Shown here: in pieces, positions 5,634 through 22,024 of the stretch
How the letters are laid out: the number at the start of each line of letters is the position of its first letter
Position numbering within the stretch: the first letter of the stretch is position 1
DNA from: Microcella humidisoli
GTDB lineage: Bacteria > Actinomycetota > Actinomycetes > Actinomycetales > Microbacteriaceae
Assembly: GCF_024362325.1 (NCBI RefSeq)
Contig: NZ_CP101497.1
Span: forward strand, 868,001-932,000
Length of the DNA: 64,000 nt
Direction: 5' to 3'
Program-made: the position numbers and the translations under genes
The notes under the pieces: model-generated
What the model was told of the DNA's origin: nothing
Seen by the model: only the letters and a program-made list of their open reading frames with translations
The model's database searches: none

Positions 5634-6125
5634 ATGGGCGCCTATCCCGTCGTCATCGAGATTCCTCGCGGCAGCCGCAACAAGTACGAGGTCGACCACG
5701 AGACGGGTCGCGTCTTTCTCGACCGCGTGCTCTTCACGCCCTTCGTGTACCCCACCGACTACGGCTTCTTCGAGAACACGCTGGGCCTCGACGGCGACCC
5801 GGTCGACGCGCTCGTGCTGCTCGAGTTCCCGCTGTTCCCGGGCGTCGGCGTGCAGGTGCGCCCGGTCGGCGTCTTCAACATGACCGACGACGGCGGCAGC
5901 GACGCCAAGGTCATCTGCGTGCCGGCGAAAGACCCGCGCTGGGCGCACATTCAGGACATCTCGGATGTTCCCGAGCAGACCCGCAAAGAGATCGAGCACT
6001 TCTTCGAGCACTACAAAGACCTCGAGCCCGGCAAGTGGGTCAAGACCGAGGGCTGGGGCGACGCCGACGAGGCCGAGGCGATCGTGCAGGCCGGCATCGC
6101 CGCCTACGTGCCCGGCGCCCACTAA
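5634..6125 (+). CDS. ppa: inorganic pyrophosphatase (soluble, family I)
   Basis: Hydrolyses pyrophosphate released by biosynthetic reactions. 163 residues. It contains the family I metal-site motif [10 protein letters not shown] and the flanking [11 protein letters not shown] and [10 protein letters not shown] segments. The ATG at 5634 follows an AAAGGAG ribosome site. It is divergent from tilS and convergent with the NlpC/P60 gene, 12 bp apart. Confidence 0.96.
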
Positions 6126-6137
6126 CAGCGGGCGACG

Positions 6138-7520
6138 CTAGCCGCTCGGCCGCGCGACGACCGGGATGCGGTCGTACGTGCGCACCGGCACGATGCGCAC
6201 GGGCTTGCCCGGCGACGGCGCCTCGATCATCTGCCCGTTACCGAGGTAGATGGTGACGTGATATTTCGATCCGGATGCTGAGCCGCCGTAGCTGTAAAAG
6301 ATGAGGTCGCCCGGCAGCGCCTGGCTGTACGACACGAGCAGGCCGCGAGAGGCCGCCCGGTTGTACTGCGCCGAGACGGAGTGCCCGCCGATCGCGAGCC
6401 CGCCCGCCGAGTAGGCCATCATCGTGAGTCCTGAGCAGTCCCACGAGTTCGGGCCGCTCGCCCCGTACTGGTAGGGCTCGCCGAGCTGCGCCCTCGCGAA
6501 GGCGATCGCGGCGGTGACGATGGCCGGCTTCGGGGTGGGTCCGGATGCGGCAGGCGGCGGGCTCGGCGTCGGAGCCGGGGGGCTCGGCGCGGGTGTCGGA
6601 GCCGGGCTGCTCGGCGACGGCGCCGGCGCCGGCGTGCTGGGCCGCGGGGTCGGCTGGCTCGGCGTGGGCGCGGGAGTGCTGGGGCTCGGGCCGGGAGCAG
6701 GCGCGCTCGGGCTCGGCGAGGGCTGGCTCGGCTGGCCGGGCCCGGGGTTCGACGGCGGTTCGGCATGCTCGAGCGAGTCGAGGTAGGCGCGCTCGAGGGC
6801 GGCCGAGCGGCCGGTGAGGGTGGCGAGCTTGACCGAGAGCTCGTCGAGCAGCGCGCGCTGCTGCGCGGCCTGCGCCTCGGCTTGCTGGGCGGCGTCCGCG
6901 GCGGCGGCGTAGACGGCTTCGGCTTCGGCCACCGCGTCGGCGTGGGCGTCGCGCGCGACCGCGGCCTGATCGCTGAGGGAGTCGGCGACGTTGCGGTCGC
7001 GCAGGGCCCGCGCCAGCACGGCGTCGGTGCGCGCGCTGAGGGCGCTCATGGTTCCGAGCCGGTAGAGCAGGTCATCCGCATCATCGCCGCTGACGATGAG
7101 GGCCATCGTGATGTCGCCGCTGCCCGCCCGCGCGAGCAGGGCCGCGAGCTGGGCGGCCTGCTGCCCCGAGGCGCTCGCGCGTTCGAGGGCTGCATCGCGG
7201 CGGCGGTCGGCCGACTGCATGGTGGTCTCGGCCTCGTCGAGCGCGATCGTGGCCTGCTGGTGCTCTTCACCGGCCATGAGCGCCGCCGTGCGCAGCTGCT
7301 CGAACTCGGCGTTCACCTCGGCGACGGTGTCGAGAATGCGCGCGATGGCGATCTCGGTGGCCTCGACGTCGCCCTTCGCTTCCTGCACGTCGTCCCACGA
7401 GGGGCCCGACGGTGCGGCGAGCGCGGTGGTCGGGCGCTGCAGGCCTGCGGCCCCGAGCGCGAGAACCAGAGCCGTCACGAGGGTGACGGCTCCGATCACG
7501 CGGCGCCCGGGGCGTCGCAT
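6138..7520 (-). CDS. secreted NlpC/P60 peptidoglycan endopeptidase with coiled-coil and Pro-rich linker
   Basis: Predicted cell-wall hydrolase (D,L-endopeptidase class). It has an N-terminal signal peptide (about 1-36, ending ALAAP) and an Ala/Glu-rich coiled coil over about 45-250. A Pro/Ser/Thr linker, about 75 residues of repeated APAPSPS-like sequence, follows. The C-terminal NlpC/P60 domain has the catalytic Cys in WDCSGL (Cys362) and the His in KYHVTIYLG (about 421). The architecture resembles RipA-like daughter-cell separation hydrolases, in which the coiled coil keeps the enzyme inactive; that role is inferred. The next gene upstream, M23, is 9 bp away and has the same signal-coil-catalytic plan, beginning with the same SWDDV element, so the pair may share a regulator. 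Confidence 0.9.
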   Translation of the reverse strand: MRRPGRRVIGAVTLVTALVLALGAAGLQRPTTALAAPSGPSWDDVQEAKGDVEATEIAIARILDTVAEVNAEFEQLRTAALMAGEEHQQATIALDEAETTMQSADRRRDAALERASASGQQAAQLAALLARAGSGDITMALIVSGDDADDLLYRLGTMSALSARTDAVLARALRDRNVADSLSDQAAVARDAHADAVAEAEAVYAAAADAAQQAEAQAAQQRALLDELSVKLATLTGRSAALERAYLDSLEHAEPPSNPGPGQPSQPSPSPSAPAPGPSPSTPAPTPSQPTPRPSTPAPAPSPSSPAPTPAPSPPAPTPSPPPAASGPTPKPAIVTAAIAFARAQLGEPYQYGASGPNSWDCSGLTMMAYSAGGLAIGGHSVSAQYNRAASRGLLVSYSQALPGDLIFYSYGGSASGSKYHVTIYLGNGQMIEAPSPGKPVRIVPVRTYDRIPVVARPSG

Positions 7521-7529
7521 CAGAGCCGG

Positions 7530-8786
7530 CTACCCAATCGCGAGACCTTTATTGCGCAGGTACGTCACGGGGTTGGTGGTGCCGCCGTTCTGCCGCACCT
7601 CGAAGTGCAGGTGGTTGCCCGTCGAGCTGCCGGTCGTGCCCATGCGGGCGATGTTCTGACCGACGACGATCTCTTGGCCCATCCGCACGAGAATGCCGCC
7701 GTTCTGAATGTGCCCGTACGAGGTGGTGAGGCCGTTGCCGTGGTTGATGCGGATGAAGTTGCCGTACCCACCGTTCCACCCGGCGTACTCGACGACGCCG
7801 CTCGCGGCCGCGTAGATGGGCGTGCCGGCCGCGTTCGCGATGTCGACACCGGCGTGGAACCGCACCGCACCGCTGATGGGGTGCACGCGGTAGCCGTAGC
7901 CCGAGCTGATGTAGCCGTTGGTCGGCACCGCCCAGCCGTTCTTGATCTGCCCGGCGCCGAGGCTCGAGCCCGAGCCGTACTGCGCGGCGATGCCGGCGCG
8001 GTAGTCCTTCTCGGTCGCCGCGCGGTTCTTGATGAGCACGTCGAGCTGGGCTTCGAGCCGCGCCTGGTTCTCCTGCTGCGCGATGAGGGCATTCTGCGCC
8101 GCCTCGGCCGCGACCTGCGCCGCTTCGAAGGCGGCCTGCGCCTCGAGCCGCAGCTCGTCGCGAATCTCCTTGGCGACGTTGGCCTGGTCGGTGAGCGACT
8201 GCGCCGCGTTCTGGTCTTGCAGCGCCGCGGCGTAGATGCCCTCGGCCTGCTCGGTGATCTTGCTGGCGAAGCCCAAGCGCGAGAGCAGCTCGTCGGCGTT
8301 GCCGGGGTTCGTGAAGAGCGAGGCCGAGAGGTCGCCGCCGCCCGATCGCGCGAGCTCGGCGACGAACTGGCCGGCGCGCGAGCGCGACTCGTCGGCGCGG
8401 GCCTGTGCCTCGTCGGCCTGGGCCTGCAGCTGGTCGGCCGTGAAGGCGGCCTCGTCGAAGGCGAGCTGCGCCTCGTAGTAGATGTCGCCCTTCTCCTGGG
8501 CGATGGCCTGGGTGCGCTCGACCTCGGCGGTGATGGCGGCGATGGCCGCGCGAATCTCCTTGATCTTGGCCTGCGCCCGCGCCACATCGCGGCGGGCGTC
8601 GAGCACGTCATCCCAGCTCGGGTAGTCGACGGCCGAAGCGGGATGCTCGGTGACGGCGATCGAACCGCTCACGAGCAGAGCCACGGCCGCGATTGCAGCG
8701 ATGAATGCGCTCGCGCGACGGCGCCGCGGACGGTCGGCGGCATCCCGTGCCGTCACGACCGGCGGCATGGCCGTCGTCTCCGTCAT
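7530..8786 (-). CDS. secreted M23-family peptidoglycan endopeptidase with coiled-coil
   Basis: EnvC/NlpD-like murein hydrolase. About 418 residues: a basic N-terminus and transmembrane signal segment (roughly 20-45), a long coiled coil (about 50-285), then an M23 domain. Zinc residues are seen in FHAGVDIA and HLHFEVR, with the YGNFIRINHGNG strand and TSYGH between them, so the domain looks catalytically competent. The ATG at 8786 is chosen because a GGGGGAG ribosome site precedes it; a further upstream in-frame ATG lacks one. It is cotranscribed with the NlpC/P60 gene. Confidence 0.9.
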   Translation of the reverse strand: MTETTAMPPVVTARDAADRPRRRRASAFIAAIAAVALLVSGSIAVTEHPASAVDYPSWDDVLDARRDVARAQAKIKEIRAAIAAITAEVERTQAIAQEKGDIYYEAQLAFDEAAFTADQLQAQADEAQARADESRSRAGQFVAELARSGGGDLSASLFTNPGNADELLSRLGFASKITEQAEGIYAAALQDQNAAQSLTDQANVAKEIRDELRLEAQAAFEAAQVAAEAAQNALIAQQENQARLEAQLDVLIKNRAATEKDYRAGIAAQYGSGSSLGAGQIKNGWAVPTNGYISSGYGYRVHPISGAVRFHAGVDIANAAGTPIYAAASGVVEYAGWNGGYGNFIRINHGNGLTTSYGHIQNGGILVRMGQEIVVGQNIARMGTTGSSTGNHLHFEVRQNGGTTNPVTYLRNKGLAIG

Positions 8787-9052
8787 CGTCGCGCTCCCCC
8801 AGCGTTCTGCTGACCGCATGATGTCTCCCCGAACCGGTGTTTGTGCGTTATGTCACAACTTCCACACGAGCACCATTGACCACAGTACCAACGGATGCCG
8901 CGTTCGGCCAGGCATCGCACCGCACGCGTCACAGGGCGCTCTGTCGGCAGGGCGCCCGCATCCTTGCCGCGACGCTAACCCGCACGGCCACGCCCGCCCG
9001 GGAGGCGGGTCGGATCGTCGCCGAACCCGCGCGCCCGCCGGCGGCCGCCGGT

Positions 9053-9082
9053 TTGGCATTCCCGGGGCTCGACCCGTATGCT
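9053..9082 (+). promoter_or_regulatory. candidate promoter of the tRNA cluster
   Basis: TTGGCA (9053-9058) and TATGCT (9077-9082) are separated by 18 bp and lie about 34 bp before tRNA-Glu. They are close to sigma-70-type consensus and correctly spaced for a stable-RNA promoter. The rest of 8820-9115 shows no coding signal. Confidence 0.6.
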
Positions 9083-9115
9083 TGTGCCTCGGTTGCTCTG
9101 CGGCTCGCGCCACCT

Positions 9116-9194
<79 letters not shown>

Positions 9195-9220
9195 GCAGCA
9201 CCACACAATTGAATACGTTT

Positions 9221-9297
9221 GGCCCTGTAGCGCAGTTGGTTAGCGCGCCGCCCTGTCACGGCGGAGGTCGCCGGTTCAAGTCCGGTCAGGGTCGCCA
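9221..9297 (+). tRNA. tRNA-Asp (GTC)
   Basis: 77-base cloverleaf with encoded CCA. The acceptor stem is 9221-9227 with 9287-9293, the anticodon GTC lies in the CTGTCAC loop, and the T-arm is GGTTCAAGTCC. It starts 29 bp after tRNA-Glu, so it is probably on the same transcript. Confidence 0.97.
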
Positions 9298-9306
9298 CGG
9301 CGACGG

Positions 9307-9326
9307 GCCCTCTCTTCGGAGGGGGC
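9307..9326 (+). terminator. hairpin with TTCG loop after tRNA-Asp
   Basis: Eight base pairs (9307-9314 with 9319-9326, including one G-T) close a TTCG tetraloop, followed by CTTGTTCC. Placed directly after tRNA-Asp, it is a likely terminator or processing signal. This would leave tRNA-Phe on its own promoter or on read-through. Confidence 0.55.
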
Positions 9327-9356
9327 TTGTTCCGTAGTGGGGCATCATCGCCCTGC

Positions 9357-9432
9357 GGCTCTGTAGCTCAGTTGGTAGAGCGCACGACTGAAAATCGTGA
9401 GGTCACGGGATCGACGCCCGTCGGAGCCACCA
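9357..9432 (+). tRNA. tRNA-Phe (GAA)
   Basis: 76-base cloverleaf with encoded CCA. The acceptor stem is 9357-9363 with 9422-9428, the anticodon GAA lies in the CTGAAAATC loop, and the D-arm is AGCTCAGTTGGTAGAGC. No duplicated 3' end was noticed elsewhere, so there is no sign that it served as an integration site here. Confidence 0.97.
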
Positions 9433-9505
9433 CACAACTCTCTTCTCTCATCGCCGTGCGCCCTTGTCGGCGACCTCTGCTCACGGTGCTGTCACGCCTC
9501 GCGAC

Positions 9506-11710
<2,205 letters not shown>

Positions 11711-11739
11711 CCGCTGTTTCGTCCGGCTGCAGGATGCTC

Positions 11740-11769
11740 GGGCCGGGGTCTCTTCGGAGGCCCCGGCCC
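11740..11769 (+). terminator. strong terminator of katG
   Basis: GGGCCGGGG plus TCTC (11740-11752) pairs with GAGG plus CCCCGGCCC (11757-11769) across a TTCG loop, a 13-bp stem. It lies 30 bp after the katG stop. It also marks the left border of the accessory island. Confidence 0.85.
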
Positions 11770-11842
11770 TTCCCGTCGACTGACATGTCGGAGCAGGTTG
11801 GCTGAAAACAGCTACCTTCCGCGCGAGATCACATGAATGTTT

Positions 11843-11875
11843 GGGTTGTGTGATTTCGGATAGTCCCCACAACCC
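11843..11875 (+). promoter_or_regulatory. 8-bp inverted repeat upstream of unknown gene pair
   Basis: GGGTTGTG (11843-11850) and CACAACCC (11868-11875) form a perfect 8-8 inverted repeat around a 17-bp spacer, 37 bp before the ATG at 11913. A second small hairpin, CCGAAG/CTTCGG at 11894-11908, sits right before that ATG. The first may be an operator and the second may modulate translation; both roles are inferred. Confidence 0.4.
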
Positions 11876-11912
11876 CTTGCCGACATAGAAGTGCCGAAGT
11901 ACCTTCGGGTTC

Positions 11913-12434
11913 ATGGCGGAGTTGCCGGACACTTGGTGGGGCTGGTCCCTGTCAAACGCCCTTTCAGCCGCGCAACTCTTGTTCACCGTCCTCGGGTTCG
12001 TCGCAACCGTCATCGCGCTTGTGGCGAATCGTTCAGCAGTGAAGGAAGGCACGCAGGCTACGCAAAGCTTGCGTGAGACGTTCCAGGTGCGGCGGGTGGC
12101 TGAACTCGTAGGCGCGCTACATGCCCTTGAAGAAAGCGTCGACGACCAGATCAGAATTAGGGACCGAGATGCAACTGGCGCTGCTCTGCTTGATTATGCA
12201 AACCGAGCAGATCGATCCACAGCCTTGCTCCGTGAGCTTGAAGACGAGGCTTCTCGGCGACTCGCCGACGCCCTGGAGAGCGCGTCGCTTACTGCGCGAC
12301 GTGCGAAAGACTCGCTTGCGAGGAACAAACGTGAGCCTGTGCAGGACCTGACAAGAACGGCCTCGGAGAAGATCACCGAAGCTGGGCAACTTGCTGCGCA
12401 GTACCTTGAGTTGAACGCATGGAAGGGGCCTTGA
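11913..12434 (+). CDS. membrane-anchored helical protein of unknown function
   Basis: 173 residues, not recognised. One strong transmembrane helix is seen at about 16-40 (LLFTVLGFVATVIALVA), preceded by a Trp-rich start with WWGW. A cytoplasmic, charged, mostly helical region follows, with likely coiled coil over about 45-165. It is followed one base later by a second unknown gene, so the two are coupled. Base composition is visibly lower in GC than the surrounding core genes, and the pair sits beside a restriction-modification system. A role as a membrane effector in defence is possible but unproven. No ribosome site is obvious. Confidence 0.7.
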   Translation: MAELPDTWWGWSLSNALSAAQLLFTVLGFVATVIALVANRSAVKEGTQATQSLRETFQVRRVAELVGALHALEESVDDQIRIRDRDATGAALLDYANRADRSTALLRELEDEASRRLADALESASLTARRAKDSLARNKREPVQDLTRTASEKITEAGQLAAQYLELNAWKGP

Positions 12435-12435
12435 G

Positions 12436-12813
12436 GTGAGCTTGGTTTCGAATGATGCGCTGCGATCTGCTATCGGGAGAATGCTTGAACTCACCGAAGC
12501 AAAGTCCCAGCGATGGACTCGATTTGAGGCGTCTGACGACGAGTACCAGACCGAAACGGAGAGTTTCGTCTTCTTCGTGCGGTCTCGCGACGATGACGGC
12601 AACGCCCCCTACGTACTCGAAATCGCTAGAAAGATCCCGAGTCATGAGCGTCTGATCAAGGTTCTCCGATACGTAACTGGTGGCCCAACCATCGTCTGGG
12701 ACCAGTTCGAAATCGACGAAACGGTGGAAAGGCTTTATGAGCTTGCGAAGGCAAGCGCATGGGGTCTGGAAGAAACCGAGTCTGAGTTGCTCAAGGAACT
12801 TGGAGTGGATTAG
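12436..12813 (+). CDS. small cytosolic protein of unknown function
   Basis: 125 residues, not recognised. No signal peptide or membrane helix. It is acidic, with an aromatic-rich central strand region (SFVFFVRSRDDD), a VLEIARKIP segment and a C-terminal helical tail. The GTG start lies one base after the stop of the membrane gene upstream, which implies stoichiometric co-expression. The 3' end overlaps by 4 bp the convergent HNH nuclease gene. It may be the soluble partner of the membrane protein. Confidence 0.65.
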   Translation: MSLVSNDALRSAIGRMLELTEAKSQRWTRFEASDDEYQTETESFVFFVRSRDDDGNAPYVLEIARKIPSHERLIKVLRYVTGGPTIVWDQFEIDETVERLYELAKASAWGLEETESELLKELGVD

Positions 12814-13568
12814 TCGAGTTCGACCTCTTCGGAGAGGATCGCCATTAGCTCGATGCGTTGAGAGATCGGCAGTCGAGCCCAGTCCGTGAATACCTTCTCT
12901 TTGTCGGTTAGGGGCCGACTACCGCGTTGCATCCATTGGAACAGCTCGAGCTTGTCAGCGCGACCTCCTACGTTCCGGACCCTGTTCAGGACCTCGTACT
13001 TGTCGGGGGGATTCAGTGTCGCGTCGCGCGACTCTTCGTTGCAGCGCTGGCACTCAGTACGAAGGTTCTCGTCGTCATCGGTACCGCCGCGCGCAACTGG
13101 GATGATGTGACCGATTGTGAGTCGCGCAAGCTTGCCCGGTGCATCGGCAAACTCACTCCCGCCGGCGGTAAAGCAGACCTGACAGGTATTGCCATCACGG
13201 TCGAAGATCCGACGGCGTTTGGGGCCGGAGATCACCTTCCGCCCGACAGCCACTGACGGCTTTTCGCCCAGATCGACGCGAACACCGATCGTCCGCACGA
13301 GATACTCATCGGGCTTCAGGGAAGGGTTGTTCTTGTAGTTGTCGATCGTCCAGCCGATTTCACGAAGGTCGCGCATACGTCGGTCGGCCTGGGCAACCCC
13401 AGGCACGGCATGCAACATCTCAAGCTTCGAGAACTTGTTGCCCTCGCCGACAGACGCGACGAATGCGGCGACCCTCGCCTTGGAGGACTTTTGGCGCAGC
13501 GGGTCGACAGTCAACGGAATCTCCTCGGTATCAACATGAGACGCAATTGGATTCTGGTGCATCATCAC
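12810..13568 (-). CDS. HNH restriction endonuclease (type II, partner of adjacent C5 methyltransferase)
   Basis: 252 residues. The C-terminal half holds a zinc-stabilised HNH fold: Cys129/Cys132, catalytic His154 in TIGHIIPVARGG, Asn168, and Cys173/Cys176 followed by Asn177. The N-terminal part (about 25-100) is predicted to be a winged-helix-like DNA-binding domain ending in EYLVRTIGVRVDLG. It lies divergent from a DNA cytosine methyltransferase with 183 bp between them, the layout of a type II R-M pair. The recognition site cannot be read from sequence. A perfect SOS-type palindrome lies 27 bp upstream of the ATG. GC content is lower than in flanking genes, a sign of transfer. Alternative: a stand-alone homing-like HNH protein, less likely given its neighbour. 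Confidence 0.82.
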   Translation of the reverse strand: MMMHQNPIASHVDTEEIPLTVDPLRQKSSKARVAAFVASVGEGNKFSKLEMLHAVPGVAQADRRMRDLREIGWTIDNYKNNPSLKPDEYLVRTIGVRVDLGEKPSVAVGRKVISGPKRRRIFDRDGNTCQVCFTAGGSEFADAPGKLARLTIGHIIPVARGGTDDDENLRTECQRCNEESRDATLNPPDKYEVLNRVRNVGGRADKLELFQWMQRGSRPLTDKEKVFTDWARLPISQRIELMAILSEEVELD

Positions 13569-13594
13569 TCAATTGTCTGGGCGGTCATCTACAT

Positions 13595-13610
13595 TCGAAC
13601 TCGGGTTCGA
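13595..13610. promoter_or_regulatory. predicted LexA (SOS) box before the restriction endonuclease
   Basis: TCGAAC-TCGG-GTTCGA is a perfect 6-4-6 palindrome matching the Gram-positive SOS box CGAAC-N4-GTTCG. On the minus strand it lies just upstream of a possible -10 (TAGATG, 13583-13588) of the HNH gene, where bound LexA would block transcription. It is about 140 bp from the methyltransferase start. Confidence 0.7.
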
Positions 13611-13751
13611 CTCGCTCCTGGCCCTGCCACAATCGCACACCAACCAAGGATGAGCGTCGTAACACAGTGGGCGACGAAGTGGGTCAGTGGTGCAAGTGGC
13701 AGCACAATAGGACCAACGAGACCTCGCGTCTCAGGAGTGGGAGAGTGACTT

Positions 13752-15002
13752 GTGAGCCACCTCGAAGTGGTCGAAATCTGCGCCGGTGCCGGTGGCCAGG
13801 CCTACGGACTCCACCGCGCAGGTTTCCATCATGCGTTGGCAGTCGAGCTCGACGCACAGGCGGCAGCGACCTTGGAAGCAAACTCGAACTGGCGTGTTGC
13901 CGTCGGCGACGTTGCGGACCCAGCCGTCTGGGACCCCTCCGAGTACAAGGGGATTGCGCTTCTCGCCGGCGGCGTACCTTGCCCCCCGTTCTCCATGGCA
14001 GGCAAGCAACTCGGCTCCGCCGATGAACGGGATCTCTTTGCTTGGGCGGTTGAGCAAGTGGGAATCTTGAAGCCACGTGCCCTGATGCTCGAGAACGTGC
14101 GCGGTCTTGCTGCACCGAGGTTTGCGGCCTACCGCCAGCACGTTCTCGACAGGTTGGCGGAGTTCGGCTACGTCGGGGACTGGCGGTTGCTCACGTCGGC
14201 AGACTTCGGCCTACCCCAGCTTCGACCGCGATTCGTCCTTGTCGCGATGAAGCCAAAAGACGCCGCATACTTCCGGTGGCCGGAACCAATGGCCCGACGG
14301 TTGACCGTGGGAGAAGCGCTCGGCGACCTTATGGCGGAGAACGGCTGGCCTCACGCTCGGGAATGGGCCGCCTTCGCCAACGGTATTGCTCCCACACTCG
14401 TCGGCGGAAGCAAGAAGCACGGAGGGGCGGACCTTGGCCCGACGAGGGCGAAGCTTGCTTGGTCCAAGCTCGGCGTCGATGCAAAGGGAATAGCGGAGGA
14501 GGCCCCGGGGCCTGACGCTCCGCACTTCTCCCTCCGCGCGCCGCGCTTGACAATCCCAATGGTGGCTCGGCTGCAGGGATGGGGATCCGACTCGGGTTGG
14601 ATCTTCACCGGACGAAAGACTTCTCAATACCGACAGATCGGCAATGCCTTCCCGCCGCCGGTTGCCGAAGCAGTCGGACGCGCGATCAAGAGCGCCCTGT
14701 TGCATGAAGGGACACCCCACCAGGTTCCCGAGCTCGTCAGCGATCTACACGACCCGATCTACCGAGAGCTCTCGCGCGCGGCTGACTTCGTATCCCTTGA
14801 ACGGCTCGTAGCAGCCATGACTGTGGGGACCGAGTCGTTGGTGCAGCGACAGCTGGCGGTGCTGGCGCGGGACTTCGAGCTCGAGGAACTCCAGACGGCG
14901 AACGGCCCGATGTACAGGCTCGGAGACTTCAAGGGCTTCACGGGCGAGTCTTCACACCCCCGTAACGAGTACATCGCCCAGCACCGAAACCGCGTCAGCT
15001 GA
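13752..15002 (+). CDS. DNA (cytosine-5-)-methyltransferase with C-terminal extension
   Basis: Modification enzyme of the R-M system. 416 residues. Motif I is EICAGAGGQAYGL. Catalytic Cys77 is in GGVPCPPFS (motif IV). Motif VI ENV is at 114-116, motif VIII QLRPR at 156-160, and motif X QYRQIGNAFPPPVA at 292-305. The target-recognition region lies between about 165 and 285. Residues 322-416 form an extra domain, possibly a winged helix, not part of the minimal enzyme; it may help sequence recognition or autoregulation. The GTG start follows an AGGAGTGGGAGAG ribosome region. Confidence 0.92.
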   Translation: MSHLEVVEICAGAGGQAYGLHRAGFHHALAVELDAQAAATLEANSNWRVAVGDVADPAVWDPSEYKGIALLAGGVPCPPFSMAGKQLGSADERDLFAWAVEQVGILKPRALMLENVRGLAAPRFAAYRQHVLDRLAEFGYVGDWRLLTSADFGLPQLRPRFVLVAMKPKDAAYFRWPEPMARRLTVGEALGDLMAENGWPHAREWAAFANGIAPTLVGGSKKHGGADLGPTRAKLAWSKLGVDAKGIAEEAPGPDAPHFSLRAPRLTIPMVARLQGWGSDSGWIFTGRKTSQYRQIGNAFPPPVAEAVGRAIKSALLHEGTPHQVPELVSDLHDPIYRELSRAADFVSLERLVAAMTVGTESLVQRQLAVLARDFELEELQTANGPMYRLGDFKGFTGESSHPRNEYIAQHRNRVS

Positions 15003-15050
15003 CCCGGCTGTCATAGAGGTCCAACCCTGTCCAGGTCTACTCTGGGGCGC

Positions 15051-15509
15051 ATGGCTGAGGGCAGAGCATCCACCGGCAATGACGGGTTCACCGCGGACGA
15101 GCGCGCCGCGATGAAGGAGCGGGCGGCCGAGCTGCGCGCGCAGGCGAAGCGGGCCAAGGGCGCGGCGAAGGCCGAAGCCGAGCTCAACGACCTGCTCGAG
15201 GCGATCGCGAAGCTTCCTGACGAGGGCGACCGAGCGCTCGCCACGACGCTGCACGAGGTGATCATGGCGGCGGCTCCGCAGCTGGCGCCGCGCACCTGGT
15301 ACGGCATGCCTGCCTACGCGCTCGACGGCAAAGTGCTGTGCTTCGTGCAGCCGGCCAGCAAGTTCGACACCCGCTACACGACGCTCGGCTTCAACGACAC
15401 CGCGCAGCTCGACGACGGCGCCATGTGGCCGGCGTCGTTCGCGGTCACCACGATCGGGCCGGCCGAGAAGACGCGCATCACCGAGCTGGTCACGCGCGCG
15501 GTCGGCTGA
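15051..15509 (+). CDS. DUF1801 (YdhG-like) domain protein
   Basis: 152 residues. A charged Ala/Lys/Glu N-terminal helix (about 12-50) precedes a compact domain with PRTWYGMPAYALDGKVLCF, typical of the DUF1801/YdhG fold whose members have been called iron-chaperone-like. No membrane segment. It marks the return to high-GC core sequence after the R-M island. Precise function is unknown. Confidence 0.75.
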   Translation: MAEGRASTGNDGFTADERAAMKERAAELRAQAKRAKGAAKAEAELNDLLEAIAKLPDEGDRALATTLHEVIMAAAPQLAPRTWYGMPAYALDGKVLCFVQPASKFDTRYTTLGFNDTAQLDDGAMWPASFAVTTIGPAEKTRITELVTRAVG

Positions 15510-15545
15510 GCCGACGGCCGACGGACGACCGCGGCGCCGCATCCC

Positions 15546-15905
15546 CTATTCGAAGATGACGTAGACCTTCTTCAGCGGCTCGGTGACCTCCCAGAAGCCC
15601 TGCCATCCGATCGGGAAGATCACCAGATCACCGGGCTGGATGTCCTGGGGCTCCTTGCCGTCTTCGGTCACCGTCATGCGGCCCGCGATCACGTAGATGA
15701 CCTCGCCGCTGTCGGTGAACTCCCACCGCGAGCGACCCGGGTCGGTCTCCCAGATGCCGACGTCGAGCGAGCTCGCCGTGCCGGAGAACACCTCGAGGTA
15801 GGTGGTGGCGATGTCGGCGCCGAGCGGGTCGGCCAGCGGCAGCTCGAGCGGGGTGTGAGTCTGGTCAGCGCGGGTGATCGAGCCGGTGCGGCACACGATG
15901 GCCAT
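15546..15905 (-). CDS. cupin domain protein (cupin_3/DUF861 type)
   Basis: About 119 residues forming a single cupin barrel: SRWEFTDSGEVIYVIAGRM, a turn at EDGKEPQDIQPGD, and FPIGWQGFWEVTEPLKKVYVIFE. This subgroup includes ureidoglycine aminohydrolase-like and other small-molecule cupins. The full set of canonical metal His residues is not seen. The ATG at 15905 has a GAAAGG ribosome site; a GTG 21 bp upstream is possible. No partner genes point to a substrate. Confidence 0.8.
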   Translation of the reverse strand: MAIVCRTGSITRADQTHTPLELPLADPLGADIATTYLEVFSGTASSLDVGIWETDPGRSRWEFTDSGEVIYVIAGRMTVTEDGKEPQDIQPGDLVIFPIGWQGFWEVTEPLKKVYVIFE

Positions 15906-16009
15906 GAGGGGTTGCCTTTCGTTCACGGGACGTCGTGACGGGACACTATCGCGACCGGCCGACGGACAGGGGCTTGGGCGAGTCCGCCCCGATCCGGCAC
16001 ACTGGGGGC

Positions 16010-16909
16010 ATGAGGTCGAGAACGAGAAGCGCTCGCGTTCTTCTCGCCGTCAGCGTGCTGCTGAGCGTCGCTGCGCCGGGTGCCGCAATCGCTGCGCCCG
16101 CCGACCACACCCAGCCCGCCGCGGCGGAAGCCGTCACCGACCTGACCTTCGCCGTCGGCACGGCCTGGATGGATCCGACGCAGGGCGACTCTCTCGGCCG
16201 ACCGTACTTCGCTGTTCCCTTCACCTTCCCGCCGTATCCCGAGGGTCTGGGCGTGGTGGCTAACAGCAAGTCGACGCGTGAGTTCGGCTTCGCCGCCGAA
16301 TGCGAGTTCACTCGGTTCGTTCCGGCCGCGGGCGAAGGCGAACTGACGTGCACGCTCGTCGACGACCTCGAGCCGGCCAACCACGAGCTGATGGTCTATC
16401 TCAAGAGCGATCGATCGGCCAACTACCAAGCGCGCCTGTTCATCGAGCTGTGCCCCCTCACCGGCTGCAGCCCGCTGTTCTCGGTCACCGCCGTGCAGGC
16501 TGCGGCGATCGAGGTATGCCCCGGTGACGCGTTCAGCGGGTCGTTCACCTACGACTTCAATCTGCCCTGGAACGCGCGCGGGGCCGCCCTCGGCACCGGG
16601 GCACCCGCGGGCGTCGCCCTCGACGCCGGCCCGGTGCGCGACGGGGGCGCCTTCAGCATCGCGGGGTCGCTCTCCGAGCCGGGCGAGCAGAGCATCCCGA
16701 TCATCGTCACCGACGAGTTCGGCGGCGAGCACCCGACAGCGGTGACGGTCACCGTGCGCGACGCCGCCACGGTCGCCTGCGGGATGCTCGCCGCGACCGG
16801 CCCGTCACCCCTCGGCCCGCCCGCCGCCGTCGCCGCGCTCGCGTTGCTGCTGGCCGGGGCGCTCACCCTGCACCGCGCCCGGCGCGGCACCGTCACGCCG
16901 CGCGACTGA
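16010..16909 (+). CDS. secreted protein with LAATG-type cell-wall sorting signal
   Basis: About 299 residues. A signal peptide (about 1-27, ending AAIAAPA) is followed by an extracellular region with six or so cysteines and beta-rich stretches. The C-terminal sorting signal is LAATG, a hydrophobic helix (PPAAVAALALLLAGALTL) and the basic tail HRARRG, typical of class E-like actinobacterial sortase substrates. No sortase is encoded in the window. The ATG at 16010 directly begins the signal peptide. The external domain was not recognised. Confidence 0.8.
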   Translation: MRSRTRSARVLLAVSVLLSVAAPGAAIAAPADHTQPAAAEAVTDLTFAVGTAWMDPTQGDSLGRPYFAVPFTFPPYPEGLGVVANSKSTREFGFAAECEFTRFVPAAGEGELTCTLVDDLEPANHELMVYLKSDRSANYQARLFIELCPLTGCSPLFSVTAVQAAAIEVCPGDAFSGSFTYDFNLPWNARGAALGTGAPAGVALDAGPVRDGGAFSIAGSLSEPGEQSIPIIVTDEFGGEHPTAVTVTVRDAATVACGMLAATGPSPLGPPAAVAALALLLAGALTLHRARRGTVTPRD

Positions 16910-16958
16910 GCATGCTCGCGCGTGCAGCAGCACGGTCGCGCCCGATTAGCCTTGACCA

Positions 16959-17789
16959 GTGATCGTCGGCCTCGGCACCCTGCTCAATGTCACGACGATC
17001 GTCGTCGGAGCCGCCATCGGCGTGCTCATCGGCAACCGCCTGCCCGAGCGCACCAACCGCGTCGTCACCGATGCCCTCGGCCTCATCACGATCGTGCTCG
17101 GCGGCCTCAACCTCGTCTCGCTCACCAACAGCGACTTCGTCGGGGCGGTCGGCGCCGGCGGCACCTTCCTCGTCGTCATCGGCGCCTTGCTCATCGGCAG
17201 CATCGTCGGCTCGCTCGCCGGCATCGAGCGCCGGCTCGAAGGCTTCGGGGGCTGGCTGCAAGACCGGCTGACGCGGCGCGGCCGCAGCGCAGCATCCGTC
17301 GCCGAATCGGCGCCCACGCGCGCATCAGAAACAGCCGACAGCCTCGTGGATGCTCGCCTCGCGATCAGCCCCCGCGAGAAATTCATCAACGGCTTCGTCG
17401 ACGCGTCGCTCGTGTTCGCGATCGGGCCCCTCGCGATTCTCGGAGCGTTCCAAGACGGCACGGGTCAGGGCATCGACCAGCTGGCCCTCAAGTCGACGCT
17501 CGACGGCTTCGCCTCGATCGCCTTCGCCGCCTCGCTCGGCTGGGGTGTTGCGTTCTCGGCGATCCCCGTCGGCATCTGGCAAGGGCTGCTGACCGTGCTG
17601 GCCTTCGCCCTCGGCTCGGTCATGTCGGGCGCGGCGATCGCGGCCCTCACGGCGACGGGCGGCGTGCTGCTGCTCGGCGTCGGCCTGCGCCTGCTCAACC
17701 TGCGCGCGGTCGCCGTGGCCGACATGCTGCCCGCGCTCATCGTCGCGCCGCTGCTGACCGTCGGCATCGCGGCGCTGCTCGGCAACTAG
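16959..17789 (+). CDS. DUF554 family membrane protein
   Basis: 276 residues, about seven hydrophobic segments. It begins with the typical GLGTLLNVTTIVVGAAIGVLIG helix and carries the family's FINGFVDASLVFAIGPLAILGAFQDG stretch. Relatives (YdfK/YqgA) are inner-membrane proteins of unknown transport function. A polar loop at about 100-140 is Ala/Arg-rich. GTG start, unlinked to its neighbours. Confidence 0.85.
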   Translation: MIVGLGTLLNVTTIVVGAAIGVLIGNRLPERTNRVVTDALGLITIVLGGLNLVSLTNSDFVGAVGAGGTFLVVIGALLIGSIVGSLAGIERRLEGFGGWLQDRLTRRGRSAASVAESAPTRASETADSLVDARLAISPREKFINGFVDASLVFAIGPLAILGAFQDGTGQGIDQLALKSTLDGFASIAFAASLGWGVAFSAIPVGIWQGLLTVLAFALGSVMSGAAIAALTATGGVLLLGVGLRLLNLRAVAVADMLPALIVAPLLTVGIAALLGN

Positions 17790-17798
17790 TCGCGCACG

Positions 17799-18233
17799 TC
17801 AGCCCGCGACGTTGGTGAGCGGGTCGATCGGGCGCACGACCGCGCCCCGGGCATCCTCGACCGGGTAGCCCTCGCGCGCCCAGTACTCGAAGCCGCCGAT
17901 CATCTCCTTCACCGGAACTCCGAGGCGCGCGAGCTCGAGCGCCCCCTTCGCGCCGCCGTTGCAGCCGGGCGACCAGCAGTAGACGACGACGGGGATGCCC
18001 TCGCCGAGTTCGGCGACGCGCGCAGCCAACTCTTGCCGCGGGATGTGCAGCGCCCCGGCCGCATGCCCCTGATCCCAGGCGGCCTGCCCGCGCACGTCGA
18101 CGAGGTGGAACACCTCGCCGGCCTGGCGCGCGGCCCACACGTCGGAGGCATCCGTCTCGACGGCGAGCTTCGCGGCGTAGTGCGCGGCCGTGGTGGCCGG
18201 GTCGTCGAAGCTGCCGAGCGCCGAGCCGGTCAT
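17799..18233 (-). CDS. rhodanese-like sulfurtransferase
   Basis: 144 residues, single rhodanese domain. VFHLVDVRG and the active-site loop YCWSPGCNGGAKGA are present, with persulfide Cys86 in place and a second Cys five residues on. The ATG overlaps the upstream membrane-protein stop (ATGA), so the two are coupled. It probably handles sulfane sulfur; the partner membrane protein gives no clear clue. Confidence 0.88.
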   Translation of the reverse strand: MTGSALGSFDDPATTAAHYAAKLAVETDASDVWAARQAGEVFHLVDVRGQAAWDQGHAAGALHIPRQELAARVAELGEGIPVVVYCWSPGCNGGAKGALELARLGVPVKEMIGGFEYWAREGYPVEDARGAVVRPIDPLTNVAG

Positions 18234-19342
18234 GCTGCGGCCACCGCGGGCGCGGGCGCAGCATCCGGAGCCGTCTGCTCGGTGAAGGCGCTGATGTAGC
18301 GGATGAAGACGGCGATCCACGCGAAGATGATCGCGAAGGCGACGAGCTCGAACGCCGTGAGGTTCCAGTACTGCACCGGGTAGAAGAGCACCGCGCCCAC
18401 GATGAGCGCGGCCGCGAAGCCGAAGCTCACGAGGAAGAAGCGCCCGGGCAGTCCCTTCAGCAGCCACGGAGACGCGAAGAGCAGCACGAGGAACGTGACG
18501 GCCATGCCTGAGGCCGAGAGGTTGTGCAGCAGGATGCTGACCGTGAGCGGGAAGATGCCGACGCACGACAGCATGACGCCCATGATCACGAAGATGATCG
18601 ACACCGTGCGCGGGGCGCTCGCCCGCGACAGAACGCCGCGGTCGACGAGCAGCTGCAGATCGCGCTGCAGGTAGAGGGCGAACGTCGTCACGAGGAAGCC
18701 CGCGATGATGAGCGTGAGGTTGAACAGGCTGCTCGAGCGGTCGCCGAAGGTGCCGAGCTGGCTGAAGTGGTACTCCCACCAGGCCGGGTCGCTCGCGGTC
18801 GCCATGGCCGTGATCGTGCCGAACGTCATGAAGAGCACGAGCAGGCTCGAGAGCTTCGGGGTCGTGATCGACGAGACCGAGAGGTAGATCCAGTACGCGC
18901 CGAGGGCCGTGACCGTCGCCATGGCGATCGTCGTGAAGGGAGCATCCAGCGTCACGCCCTGGAAGCTGCGCTGCAGCAGCAGGAACGTCGCGATCGCCGC
19001 GAGCACCGCGAGCACGGCGTGCACGAAGGCCACCGAGGTGGCGTCGACGATGAACTTCCACGACGCGAGCTCGAGCCGCCACTGCTGACCGAGCACGCTT
19101 CGGCTGCGCCAGTAGCCGACGTAGGCCACGATCACGCCCGCCACGAGGATCGACCCGGCGCTCGCGACGCCGAGCGAGACGCCGCCCCAGATCGGCGGGT
19201 TCGTGCCGGCGAAGAGCACGCCGCCCACGATGAGGGTCACGGCGCCGACGGCGAGGGCGACCGCGAAGGCCTCCGACTCGACGTCGAGCGGGGTGCGGAC
19301 AGGCGCGGTGGTGCCGGTGGGCGCGGGGGCGGCGGTGCTCAT
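18230..19342 (-). CDS. polytopic membrane protein (DUF998-like)
   Basis: 370 residues with about nine or ten hydrophobic helices and short loops. It resembles DUF998-type membrane proteins by its spacing and Gly/Ser-rich helices, but no catalytic motif is visible. The start follows a Pro/Thr/Ala-rich cytosolic N-terminus of about 25 residues. It is translationally coupled to the rhodanese downstream. Confidence 0.7.
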   Translation of the reverse strand: MSTAAPAPTGTTAPVRTPLDVESEAFAVALAVGAVTLIVGGVLFAGTNPPIWGGVSLGVASAGSILVAGVIVAYVGYWRSRSVLGQQWRLELASWKFIVDATSVAFVHAVLAVLAAIATFLLLQRSFQGVTLDAPFTTIAMATVTALGAYWIYLSVSSITTPKLSSLLVLFMTFGTITAMATASDPAWWEYHFSQLGTFGDRSSSLFNLTLIIAGFLVTTFALYLQRDLQLLVDRGVLSRASAPRTVSIIFVIMGVMLSCVGIFPLTVSILLHNLSASGMAVTFLVLLFASPWLLKGLPGRFFLVSFGFAAALIVGAVLFYPVQYWNLTAFELVAFAIIFAWIAVFIRYISAFTEQTAPDAAPAPAVAAA

Positions 19343-19424
19343 GCGGTCAGTCTAGAGACGGCGGTGGATGCTCGACAGGGGCCGTTCGGGAAGAACTCAC
19401 GCACGACCGTGGTTGGCTTGAGAC

Positions 19425-19685
19425 ATGACCGACTCACTTGCTCCCGCCGCCGGCACGATCACGATGTACGGCGCCGACTGGTGCCGCGACTGCCGCCGCA
19501 CCGAGGCCCTGCTCAACGACCTCGGCGTCGAGTGGACCAAGGTCGACGTGGAGGCCTCGGCCGACGCCGCCGCGCAGGCGCAGGCCATCAGCGGCCGCAT
19601 GAACATTCCCGTCGTCGTCTTCCCCGACGGATCGCACCTCGTCGAGCCCAGCGACGACGCCGTGCGCACAGCGCTCGGCCTCTAG
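19425..19685 (+). CDS. glutaredoxin/mycoredoxin-like protein
   Basis: 86 residues, thioredoxin fold. Active site C20-R-D-C23 in YGADWCRDCRR, the cis-Pro segment NIPVVVFPDG, and a C-terminal LVEPSDDAVRTALGL helix. Actinobacterial homologues act as mycoredoxins that reduce mycothiol mixed disulfides. The CRDC active site differs from the CGYC of classical Mrx1, so the redox partner is uncertain. The stop codon is inside a perfect 8-bp hairpin (19672-19692). Confidence 0.85.
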   Translation: MTDSLAPAAGTITMYGADWCRDCRRTEALLNDLGVEWTKVDVEASADAAAQAQAISGRMNIPVVVFPDGSHLVEPSDDAVRTALGL

Positions 19686-19746
19686 CCGAGCGCAATCAGC
19701 ACAGCGCTGGGCGTCTAGCCGAGCGCATCAGCACCGTGCTCGGCGT
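19667..19746 (+). repeat. imperfect tandem duplication of the glutaredoxin gene end
   Basis: A 33-base unit starting CACAGCGCT and ending CGCAATCAG (19667-19699) is repeated almost exactly at 19700-19731, with a decayed third partial unit after it. Each unit carries a CTAG-containing GCTCGGC/GCCGAGC-type arm. The first unit holds the real stop codon, so the rest is a non-coding echo of the gene end. Confidence 0.75.
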
Positions 19747-19795
19747 ACCCTCGGCTTAAGGGCCCGTTCCGGCTCCCCAATGTAAGGAGAGCCCC

Positions 19796-19942
19796 ATGGG
19801 CGAGAAGTCCGCACGCAAGAACAGCCCGAAGACCGCGGCGGCGAAGACGCTGAAAGAGAAGCGGGTCGCGAAGGCCGACAAGAAGGCCTCGAACGGCCGC
19901 TCGCAGAACTCCGACGCGGTGACGAACGCCACCCACAAGTAG
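19796..19942 (+). CDS. small basic conserved-type protein (48 aa)
   Basis: 48 residues, extremely Lys/Ala-rich (KTLKEKRVAKADKKASNG) with a polar C-terminus ending THK. A near-perfect TAAGGAGA ribosome site sits 8 bp before the ATG, which argues that it is real despite its size. Similar short lysine-rich proteins occur in related actinobacteria. Nucleic-acid or ribosome association is a guess based on charge only. Confidence 0.75.
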   Translation: MGEKSARKNSPKTAAAKTLKEKRVAKADKKASNGRSQNSDAVTNATHK

Positions 19943-19946
19943 CGCG

Positions 19947-21203
19947 CTAGGCGCTGCGTGCGCTGCGTCGGGTCGTGAGGGCGAGACCGCCGAGCGTCAT
20001 GAGGGCGAGACCGGCGGCGAGCATCCCGCCATTGACCTCGCTCGCACCGGTCGCCGCGAGGCTGCTCGCTTCGAACCAGATCTCGACCGTGCCCGTCTCG
20101 TCTTCTCCGAACGCCGCCGGCACCAGCCCGCCCTTGGTGTCATCGAGGGCGTCGCCGGGGGTCGCGGCAGCGGCCGCCACTGACGTGACGTCGAACTCGC
20201 TCTCGTCGTCGTACGACGTGAGGACGAGCGTGTAGGTGCCCGGCTGAAGCTCGACCGTGAACTGCGAGTAGCGGTCGCTCATGACGGTGCCGCTGCTCGT
20301 CAGGTAGTAGTCGCCGTAGTCGTCGAGGTCGGAGTCGTCGTTGCAGCCGACGACGCCGAGGTGCGCGTTCGCGGGGTCGAAGGTGCTGTACAGCGCGAGG
20401 AACGGGTCGGTCATGTACCGATCGGGCTGGCGGAAGTCGACGTCGCTGCTGATGGGGTCGAGGTCAGAGACTCGGAAGCTGTAGAAGCCGCGCGTCTCGA
20501 CGACGACCTCGCTCGAAGCCCAGAAATGGTTGCCGTCGGTGATGCCGCAGTCGGTGACACCACCGAGCTCGAGGTCGTCGAACTCGTCGTAGTACTGCGG
20601 GTCGTCCGCCACGACCATGTCGGCGTCGGCGTCGCCCGGAATGGTGAGGTCGAGCTCATCGACACGGTCGCCCTGCGGGTCGGCGACATCGACCAAGAGC
20701 TCGACGTCGATGACGAAGTAACCGGTGGGGTCGTCGCCGTCGAGCACGATGAACTCGGTGTTGGGCCCGACCTCGTACTCGGTGGCGGTGAGCGGGTCGA
20801 TGTCGCCCGACTCCCAGTCGGTGCCGAGCACCTGTGCCTCACCGGCATCGGGGCCGTCGAGCGGCGTGTACTGCGGCGTCACTCGCGGGTCGTCGCTGTT
20901 GGAGTAGAGCTCCACCGAGACGCAGTTCAGGACCGAGACCGTCACGACCCCGTCGGCAGGGATCGGCAGGTCGGCGTAGTCGAACTGCGTGTCGTAGTCG
21001 TAGGTGACGTCGTCAGGAATGAGCGAGCAGTCGATGTCGACGAGATAGTCGGGGTCGGCCAGCGTTCCGACGTTCGCGAAGTCGACGCCCGGCGGCAGCG
21101 AGCGCGCCGTGAAGGCGGCCGCCGGCGACGCGGCGACGAGTCCCGCACCCACGAGGACGGCGGTGAGAGAGAAAGCGGCGACACCACGGACGGAACGCGA
21201 CAT
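19947..21203 (-). CDS. acidic secreted protein with LAATG cell-wall sorting signal
   Basis: About 418 residues. Signal peptide (roughly 1-30, ending SPAAAF), then a strongly acidic Asp-rich ectodomain with paired cysteines. A C-terminal half (from about residue 240) resembles bacterial pre-peptidase C-terminal/beta-sandwich domains: DPFLALYSTFDP, VVGCNDDSD, FTVELQPGTYTLVLTSYD. It ends with LAATG, a hydrophobic helix and RRSARSA, a sortase signal like that of the gene at 16010. Start at the second in-frame ATG, closest to the signal peptide. Likely wall-displayed and Ca-binding; function unknown. Confidence 0.8.
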   Translation of the reverse strand: MSRSVRGVAAFSLTAVLVGAGLVAASPAAAFTARSLPPGVDFANVGTLADPDYLVDIDCSLIPDDVTYDYDTQFDYADLPIPADGVVTVSVLNCVSVELYSNSDDPRVTPQYTPLDGPDAGEAQVLGTDWESGDIDPLTATEYEVGPNTEFIVLDGDDPTGYFVIDVELLVDVADPQGDRVDELDLTIPGDADADMVVADDPQYYDEFDDLELGGVTDCGITDGNHFWASSEVVVETRGFYSFRVSDLDPISSDVDFRQPDRYMTDPFLALYSTFDPANAHLGVVGCNDDSDLDDYGDYYLTSSGTVMSDRYSQFTVELQPGTYTLVLTSYDDESEFDVTSVAAAAATPGDALDDTKGGLVPAAFGEDETGTVEIWFEASSLAATGASEVNGGMLAAGLALMTLGGLALTTRRSARSA

Positions 21204-21292
21204 AGCAGGCCTCGGCAATGATCGGGCAACGAAGGGGAAAGCGGTTCAGTATTGCAGTCGGATCGTCGCCGCGAAAGACCCCCGCCCTGAGG

Positions 21293-22024
21293 TCAGCCGA
21301 CGAGCGTGCGGCGGAAAAACCCGTCGATGCGCGCCCACGCGTCCTCGGCCTCGACGGGCCGGTGGCCGAGGCCCATCATGGGCTTCATCATGACGCGCGT
21401 GAGCGTCGAGCCGGCGGCGTGCGCGTTCAAGAACCCGTGCCCGGCCTCGGGGTACTCGACCACGTCGTGCTCGATGCCGCGCGCGACCAGGGCGGCCTCC
21501 AGTTTCTCGGCCGCGCCGGGCAGGCTGCGATCGCGGCCGCCGAACGTGCCGACCACGGGGCACGCGCCGTCGAGCGTGGCGTCGAGGTCGGCGGGCAGCA
21601 TCCCGTAATTGATGGATGCGGCGCCGAAGCCGCCCTGCCCCGCGAGCAGCAGCGCGAAACCGCCGCCCATGCAGAAGCCGATGACGCCCGCGTGCTCGGT
21701 GGTGTCGTCGCGGGCGAGCAGGTACTGGCGCGCCGCCTCGATGTCGTCGAACGCCGCGCCCGTGCCGGCCCGGAGCGCGCGGAACGTGGCCACCAGGCAG
21801 CGCCGCGCGCCGCCGCGGCTGAACAGGTTCGGCATGACCACGAGGTAGCCGAGGCGCGTGAGCCGCTCGAGGTGGTCGCGCATCGCTTCGTCGATGCCGA
21901 ACACCTCGTGCACGACGACGAGGGGCACGAACGGGCCGGGGCCCTCAGGCACGCCGAGCACCGCGGTGAGCTCACCGCCGCGCGGGTCGCCGGGCTGCGG
22001 GATGACGACGTCGGTGAGGGCCAT
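21293..22024 (-). CDS. dienelactone hydrolase family protein
   Basis: 243 residues, alpha/beta hydrolase. Nucleophile Cys118 in GFCMGGG, acid Asp in GGRDRSLPG, His in AGHGFLN, giving the Cys-Asp-His triad of dienelactone hydrolases. HEVFGIDEAMRDH is also typical. In the chlorocatechol pathway it opens dienelactone; no such pathway genes are nearby, so the natural substrate is open. Confidence 0.9.
   Translation of the reverse strand: MALTDVVIPQPGDPRGGELTAVLGVPEGPGPFVPLVVVHEVFGIDEAMRDHLERLTRLGYLVVMPNLFSRGGARRCLVATFRALRAGTGAAFDDIEAARQYLLARDDTTEHAGVIGFCMGGGFALLLAGQGGFGAASINYGMLPADLDATLDGACPVVGTFGGRDRSLPGAAEKLEAALVARGIEHDVVEYPEAGHGFLNAHAAGSTLTRVMMKPMMGLGHRPVEAEDAWARIDGFFRRTLVG

Follow-up and report, generated by a model that had tools for sequence, protein, structure and literature searches.

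Restriction-modification (R-M) systems put their hosts at risk of self-cutting after repair that has left DNA unmodified and on entry of the system into a new cell, and the known safeguards include C proteins, promoter methylation, and the proteolysis of type I enzymes. The closest described systems are summarized here from the accessible portions of the papers cited. In Corynebacterium glutamicum, cglIM and cglIR are named as members of the LexA regulon, with M-values under ciprofloxacin of 3.41 and 1.38, respectively (PMC5055667). In Mycobacterium tuberculosis, five putative HNH endonucleases respond in a RecA-dependent manner (PMC8151990). In the ScmA/VsrA system of Caulobacter, a YGCCGGCR C5 methyltransferase is tied to SOS, and a LexA-type motif is reported inside vsrA (PMC12907096). 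UV-induced restriction alleviation proceeds through ClpXP and concerns type I enzymes (PMC12707154). Here, we describe a LexA-type (SOS) box in a stretch of 64,000 nucleotides from Microcella humidisoli (contig NZ_CP101497.1, positions 868,001 to 932,000; hereafter, the window), located between a gene for an HNH nuclease and a gene for a C5 methyltransferase. The box at 13595-13610 is probably a LexA operator in the methyltransferase promoter of a type II-like R-M locus, an arrangement that would make modification inducible by DNA damage.

The features of the locus are as follows:

13595..13610, no strand assigned: LexA (SOS) box with perfect half-sites, TCGAAC-TCGG-GTTCGA, in the intergenic region from which the nuclease and methyltransferase genes diverge
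13590..13595, plus strand: -10-like hexamer TACATT, a putative promoter element in the methyltransferase direction, its final T doubling as the initial T of the box
13752..15002, plus strand: C5 cytosine DNA methyltransferase of 416 amino acids (PF00145, E = 7e-55, residues 5 to 313)
12810..13514 (listed open reading frame [ORF] to 13568), minus strand: HNH nuclease of 234 amino acids with a C-terminal zinc HNH (PF01844/PF14279)

The two listed ORFs on either side of the box, 12810-13568 (minus strand) and 13752-15002 (plus strand), are both present. The HNH gene probably starts not at the listed position 13568 but at a TTG codon at 13514, which is preceded by GAGGAG, because the eight closest relatives are proteins of 234 amino acids. 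From the box, it is 81 bp to this TTG and 142 bp to the beginning of the methyltransferase ORF, and the intergenic gap measures 183 bp by the listed ORFs and 237 bp from the TTG.

TCGAACTCGGGTTCGA occupies exactly positions 13595 to 13610, so that the perfect TCGAAC-N4-GTTCGA palindrome of a preliminary description of this DNA stands as given. It matches the Streptomyces LexA motif tCGAAC-N4-GNNCGa, for which the published account, in its accessible portion, lists box positions between -14 and -199, plus a single one at +91 (PMC9380542). The perfect 16-mer is found at 5 sites in the genome of 2,653,678 bases, versus none for the reversed control pattern. The genome encodes both lexA and recA, and each ORF has a one-mismatch box upstream, at 85 bp for lexA (TCAAACATCTGTTCGA) and at about 210 bp for recA (TCGAACATCTGTTCGC). 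Of the other perfect copies, one is found at a locus of the imuB type (PF00817) and one 16 bp upstream of an ORF leading into a DUF222 gene; the genes neighboring the remaining two could not be tied to SOS. By eye, a DUF222-type gene that follows a perfect SOS box (L033, 62-1485, at about 1.767 Mb of the genome) is apparently split over two frames, with PF02720 in the second. Sites with up to two mismatches number 470 in the genome versus 146 for the control, and because they are so common they were kept out of the evidence. Within the window, the shorter pattern CGAAC-N4-GTTCG with one mismatch allowed was found 5 times versus 4.45 expected, which is chance level.

The box recurs upstream of related methyltransferases. 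Relatives were collected with a cutoff of E ≤ 1e-60 from three genome samples that overlap (398 genomes at the rank of family, 394 at class, and 396 at order; about 400 per rank and not all genomes) and from one Rhodococcus opacus plasmid. The pooled set comprises 76 loci, or 75 when the window is not counted, and a single genome (G578) contributes two of them. It excludes L112, the site of a second methyltransferase in G239 (39% identical), as well as 12 further places; read as wider stretches, none of these 12 has a box with at most one mismatch within 500 bp. Among the 75 other loci, 15 present a box with at most one mismatch in the 300 bp that precede the methyltransferase. These 15 fall in 23,250 bp of upstream sequence, where about 0.6 would be expected, and the rest of the same loci hold 7 in 278,791 bp (odds ratio of 26; Fisher P = 2e-12, with loci treated as independent and relatedness uncorrected). 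For 179 permuted half-sites, the upstream mean was 0.03 and the maximum was 1, and the mean for the rest of the loci was 0.6 versus the 7 observed; since permuted half-sites are about eleven times rarer elsewhere, this control overstates the case, and the within-locus comparison is the fairer one. In the first 54 loci (window included), 13 boxes with at most one mismatch, 5 of them perfect, were found in 32 kb of sequence within 600 bp upstream, versus 3 boxes in 182 kb outside the upstream regions and none for the reversed control. The 22 new loci of the later order sample, which are within the 75, have four boxes in 11.5 kb upstream (2 perfect and 2 with one mismatch; one of the four is the L239 box described below), versus no perfect and 2 one-mismatch boxes in 73.6 kb elsewhere. 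On the controls for the pooled loci, the reading of the box as a chance match was rejected. In the eight-row clade of the window, five rows are boxed. The operator is conserved at related loci in the sense of being enriched and not universal: the conservation check suggested in the preliminary description shows the box kept in part of the homologous R-M loci and not lost from all.

The gene on the other side of the box varies. In the divergent position, there is an HNH gene in the window, L113, L115, and L160, a NaeI gene in L117, and vsr in L148 and L149. No match to a nuclease or vsr query lies beyond the far side of the box in L114, L078, L150, and L151, and the nearest match beyond the box in L152 and L153 is an HNH relative 2.3 to 3 kb away. 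By a count over methyltransferase rows, 14 of 81 have a box with at most one mismatch within 500 bp upstream, and these six loci are among the 14. Nuclease and vsr starts were counted as well (92, window included): a box lies within 350 bp of eight of them, and in all eight cases the same box is also upstream of a methyltransferase start, at 487 bp in L077. An assignment of the box to the nuclease was therefore rejected, since not one of the 92 starts has a near box that is not shared in this way. The nuclease partner and its position vary (HNH, NaeI, HNH_2, or a cluster with SNF2 and ParB-like genes), and the box remains upstream of the C5 methyltransferase. A Streptomyces HNH relative (L036), with no methyltransferase match in its 10.7-kb locus, has no box, although this is one case. 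Because the nuclease partners change or are absent, because of the direction of the -10-like hexamer, and because L036 is boxless, the box appears to track the methyltransferase and not the nuclease.

The hexamer abutting the box has counterparts at related loci. Oriented toward the methyltransferase, a TANNNT sequence whose final base coincides with the initial T of the box is present at 6 of 16 boxes, versus a background of 2.4%; in the opposite orientation it is present at none of the 16. The six (window, L113, L114, L115, L117, and L237) are those boxed loci whose methyltransferase shares 64% identity or more with that of the window and whose box lies within 300 bp. The pattern is post hoc, having been spotted in five loci before testing, with L237 added later. 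A putative SOS box that overlaps a -10 element is described for sigH of C. glutamicum in the accessible portion of the source (PMC3489674).

These observations suggest how the locus may work. In the undamaged cell, LexA would occupy the box beside the -10 element and keep transcription of the methyltransferase gene down at a maintenance level. Upon DNA damage, fork collapse, or the conjugal entry of single-stranded DNA, RecA on single-stranded DNA would trigger LexA cleavage, and synthesis of the methyltransferase would increase. Unmodified sites arising from repair synthesis or present in incoming DNA could then be methylated before the partner nuclease cuts them, and the outcome would be restriction alleviation achieved from the side of modification. 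Since the box of the window sits between the two divergent genes, co-repression of the HNH gene is possible. If this is true, an SOS-wired methyltransferase would be a simple further safeguard for the host, with damage temporarily strengthening modification and not restriction.

A number of observations weigh against an operator in the methyltransferase promoter. The LexA-type operator at an R-M locus proposed in the preliminary description is supported, with the box recurring at related loci, but 60 of the 75 methyltransferase-family loci have no box with at most one mismatch within 300 bp upstream, and L116 and L118 lack it even within the clade of the window. On a tree from which L182 (no readable start), rows without an identity value, and rows below 38% were excluded, the presence of the box needs 9 changes, versus 12.1 in shuffles, of which 3 of 500 were as low; because of these 9 changes, boxes appear to have been gained or lost several times, so the box is either optional or repeatedly gained and lost. 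Of the two starts, that of the HNH gene is the closer to the window box, whose core, TCGG, is one of the 2 exceptions among 16 boxes, 14 of which have a core of the purine..pyrimidine type. In L239 the box is 420 bp from the methyltransferase, apparently within a vsr-like gene, and in L077 the nearest upstream box is inside the end of a vsr-like gene. The latter gene (8225-8701) stands between the methyltransferase and HNH genes and holds the one-mismatch box in its 3' end, which may be compared with the motif of Caulobacter vsrA. No sigma-70 consensus promoter was found at 13400-13800 on either strand. In addition, the main text of the LexA regulon paper on Streptomyces venezuelae contains neither "methyltransferase" nor "restriction."

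The preliminary description had placed the box next to the likely -10 of the HNH nuclease and not of the methyltransferase, with LexA mainly repressing this gene and restriction switched on specifically after damage. The HNH side of the box does have features to recommend it: besides the distance of 81 bp, the box is on the HNH side in four divergent relatives with close HNH homologs (L113, L115, L077, and L160), in L077 the HNH start is 174 bp away from it and the methyltransferase 487 bp, and SOS-linked HNH-type genes exist, with the DUF222-type gene of this genome and the five reported for M. tuberculosis (PMC8151990, accessible portion) as examples. However, in these four relatives the box is 165 to 206 bp from the HNH start, TTGAC-type -35 motifs in L113, L115, and L077 lie about 100 bp or more from the box (by eye and unscored), and a -10 for the HNH gene gains no support, as no consensus promoter was found and the recurrent -10-like hexamer faces the methyltransferase. 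With the shared boxes at all eight near nuclease or vsr starts and the boxless L036, control directed mainly at the nuclease is quite improbable, and the predicted order of events is probably reversed, with damage-induced modification fitting better than damage-induced restriction. In L115 (G488), eight imperfect NGCCGAA repeats with a spacing of 10 to 13 bp (6534-6615) lie around the region of the HNH promoter, in the interval that separates the SOS box from the HNH gene, and similar words are found in L077 and L036; they may serve some further regulator of the nuclease as its operator.

A single LexA dimer between the divergent genes might instead repress both, in which case damage would induce both and keep their ratio. 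Such a scheme would suit the divergent layout of the window, where the two starts are 237 bp apart, the box is only 23 to 56 bp from the divergent gene in L148 and L149 (vsr) and in L117 (NaeI), and C. glutamicum offers a precedent in which cglIM and cglIR both rise with ciprofloxacin (PMC5055667, accessible portion). The absence of TANNNT on the other side of all 16 boxes speaks against dual control, which we regard as unlikely. The palindrome could also be the target of a different regulator, such as a C protein or cognate promoter methylation, or a relic to which nothing binds. Its atypical core would agree with this, yet the same motif is present at lexA, recA, and imuB in the genome and recurs upstream of family members despite divergent surrounding sequence, which makes such an origin very improbable. 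Methylation of the promoter at GCCGGC, the candidate target discussed below, was considered and set aside as unlikely because 13501-13760 contains no such site. A LexA operator acting on the methyltransferase remains the preferred reading.

With regard to the proteins themselves, the methyltransferase gives a strong match to the PADLOC profile DruM2 and also matches MTase_II. As to Druantia, the two ORFs beyond the HNH gene gave no PADLOC match, in a scan that included no search aimed at DruE. The HNH protein matches REase_II of PADLOC (E = 1e-10, residues 53 to 183 of the 252-amino-acid listed ORF) and is a candidate for the restriction enzyme of the locus. Its HNH motif is intact in the alignment, in which, by eye, some relatives have lost the motif yet keep the N-terminal region and the zinc cysteines. 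Its close relatives P0001 to P0012 are 75 to 89% identical; the closest organism-named relative among the matches listed is P0010 from Microcella (85%), and an HNH relative coexists with NaeI in L160. The predicted HNH structure has a predicted local distance difference test (pLDDT) value of 84 and a predicted template modeling (pTM) score of 0.45; a structure search with this model gave no match at E ≤ 0.001, the best being EcoKMcrA (6ghc; 6e-3, template modeling [TM] score of 0.24), and the sequence search against PDB gave weak HNH matches at most. In viral_contigs, the methyltransferase has no relatives and the HNH protein has partial matches of 30 to 55% identity.

The methyltransferase family is associated with NaeI. 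In 30 of the 81 rows, the methyltransferase has a NaeI-family gene no more than 3.5 kb away; these methyltransferases are 48 to 67% identical to that of the window, and the identity of the NaeI query is firm (PF09126, E = 1e-109; PDB 1ev7, E = 1e-75). Other partners in family loci are Vsr (PF03852), HNH_2, and relatives of the HNH protein of the window, with vsr a frequent neighbor (29 matches in the loci examined). From this association and from the NaeI site, which we take to be GCCGGC, the window methyltransferase may target GCCGGC. This hexamer is not depleted in the window, with 112 occurrences versus 118 expected.

Near the methyltransferase family or the HNH relatives, a cluster recurs that is composed of a relative of the HNH protein, a ParB-like protein of about 470 amino acids (our label, with no Pfam match), an SNF2 helicase of about 610 amino acids, and a NOV_C-domain protein. 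At least two of these four genes are present in 13 of 72 loci (L078, L082, L083, L116, L152, L153, L162, L170, L191, L198, L201, L259, and L260), with NOV_C in 7 of the 13 and an SOS box in the locus in 5 of the 13. The two HNH relatives of the cluster that were scanned, those of L116 and L078, have no HNH Pfam match, and the cluster gives weak PADLOC matches; it is possibly an undescribed defense module. In L077, a serine resolvase gene (10047-10709) beside the R-M locus of G106 is preceded, at about 140 bp, by a second perfect SOS box (10851-10866); L113 has a similar resolvase, and its 15 kb contain no such box. The mobility of the L077 island is possibly SOS-linked.

Beyond the window, the recurrence of the box hints at a theme of the Actinomycetota. 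We tentatively put forward, as something short of an even prospect, that a sizeable minority of NaeI-associated C5 methyltransferases carry a LexA operator in their own promoters whatever the nuclease module (HNH, NaeI, HNH_2, or SNF2/ParB/NOV_C), that damage or the entry of single-stranded DNA would in this way increase modification before restriction, and that the operator may serve as an SOS-timed switch for self-protection and establishment that does the job of a C protein. No report of SOS control of NaeI-type methyltransferases was found in the open-licence literature. In its accessible portion, a review of R-M regulation (PMC3874152) names LexA twice, with toxin-antitoxin systems and SOS and with symE, and contains no LexA control of R-M systems. 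The statement in the preliminary description that no such layout is widely described needs a caveat, given cglIM and cglIR in the LexA regulon and the RecA-dependent HNH genes of M. tuberculosis. SOS control of R-M systems is already known; what appears to be new is that an operator recurs with one methyltransferase family while the nuclease partners change.

Compared with the known systems, the locus resembles CglI, in which a C5 methyltransferase gene and its restriction gene are named in the LexA regulon and, by the values available for it, the methyltransferase is the more strongly induced of the two. It differs in that the consecutive locus tags of cglIM and cglIR suggest adjacent and not divergent genes, whereas the window has a divergent HNH nuclease. 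With the NaeI system it shares related methyltransferases, which often stand beside a NaeI-family gene; in contrast, an HNH gene is the sole nuclease match at 6000-22000 of the window, the stretch to which the search was confined, and no NaeI homolog is present there. The LexA-linked HNH genes of Actinomycetota, of the DUF222 type and presumably those called 13E12, are likewise HNH-type genes with SOS links, but the DUF222 gene of this genome is away from the R-M locus. The Caulobacter ScmA/VsrA system is similar to the family in its vsr neighbor, and the L077 box also lies in the end of a vsr gene; in the accessible description, however, it has another LexA motif, a solitary methyltransferase, and a box on the vsr-like gene and not on the methyltransferase. 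Finally, the proposal has in common with restriction alleviation, as far as the cited account of the latter extends, that the host is spared its own restriction after damage, but here this would be achieved through increased transcription of the methyltransferase, unlike the proteolysis of the nuclease by ClpXP.

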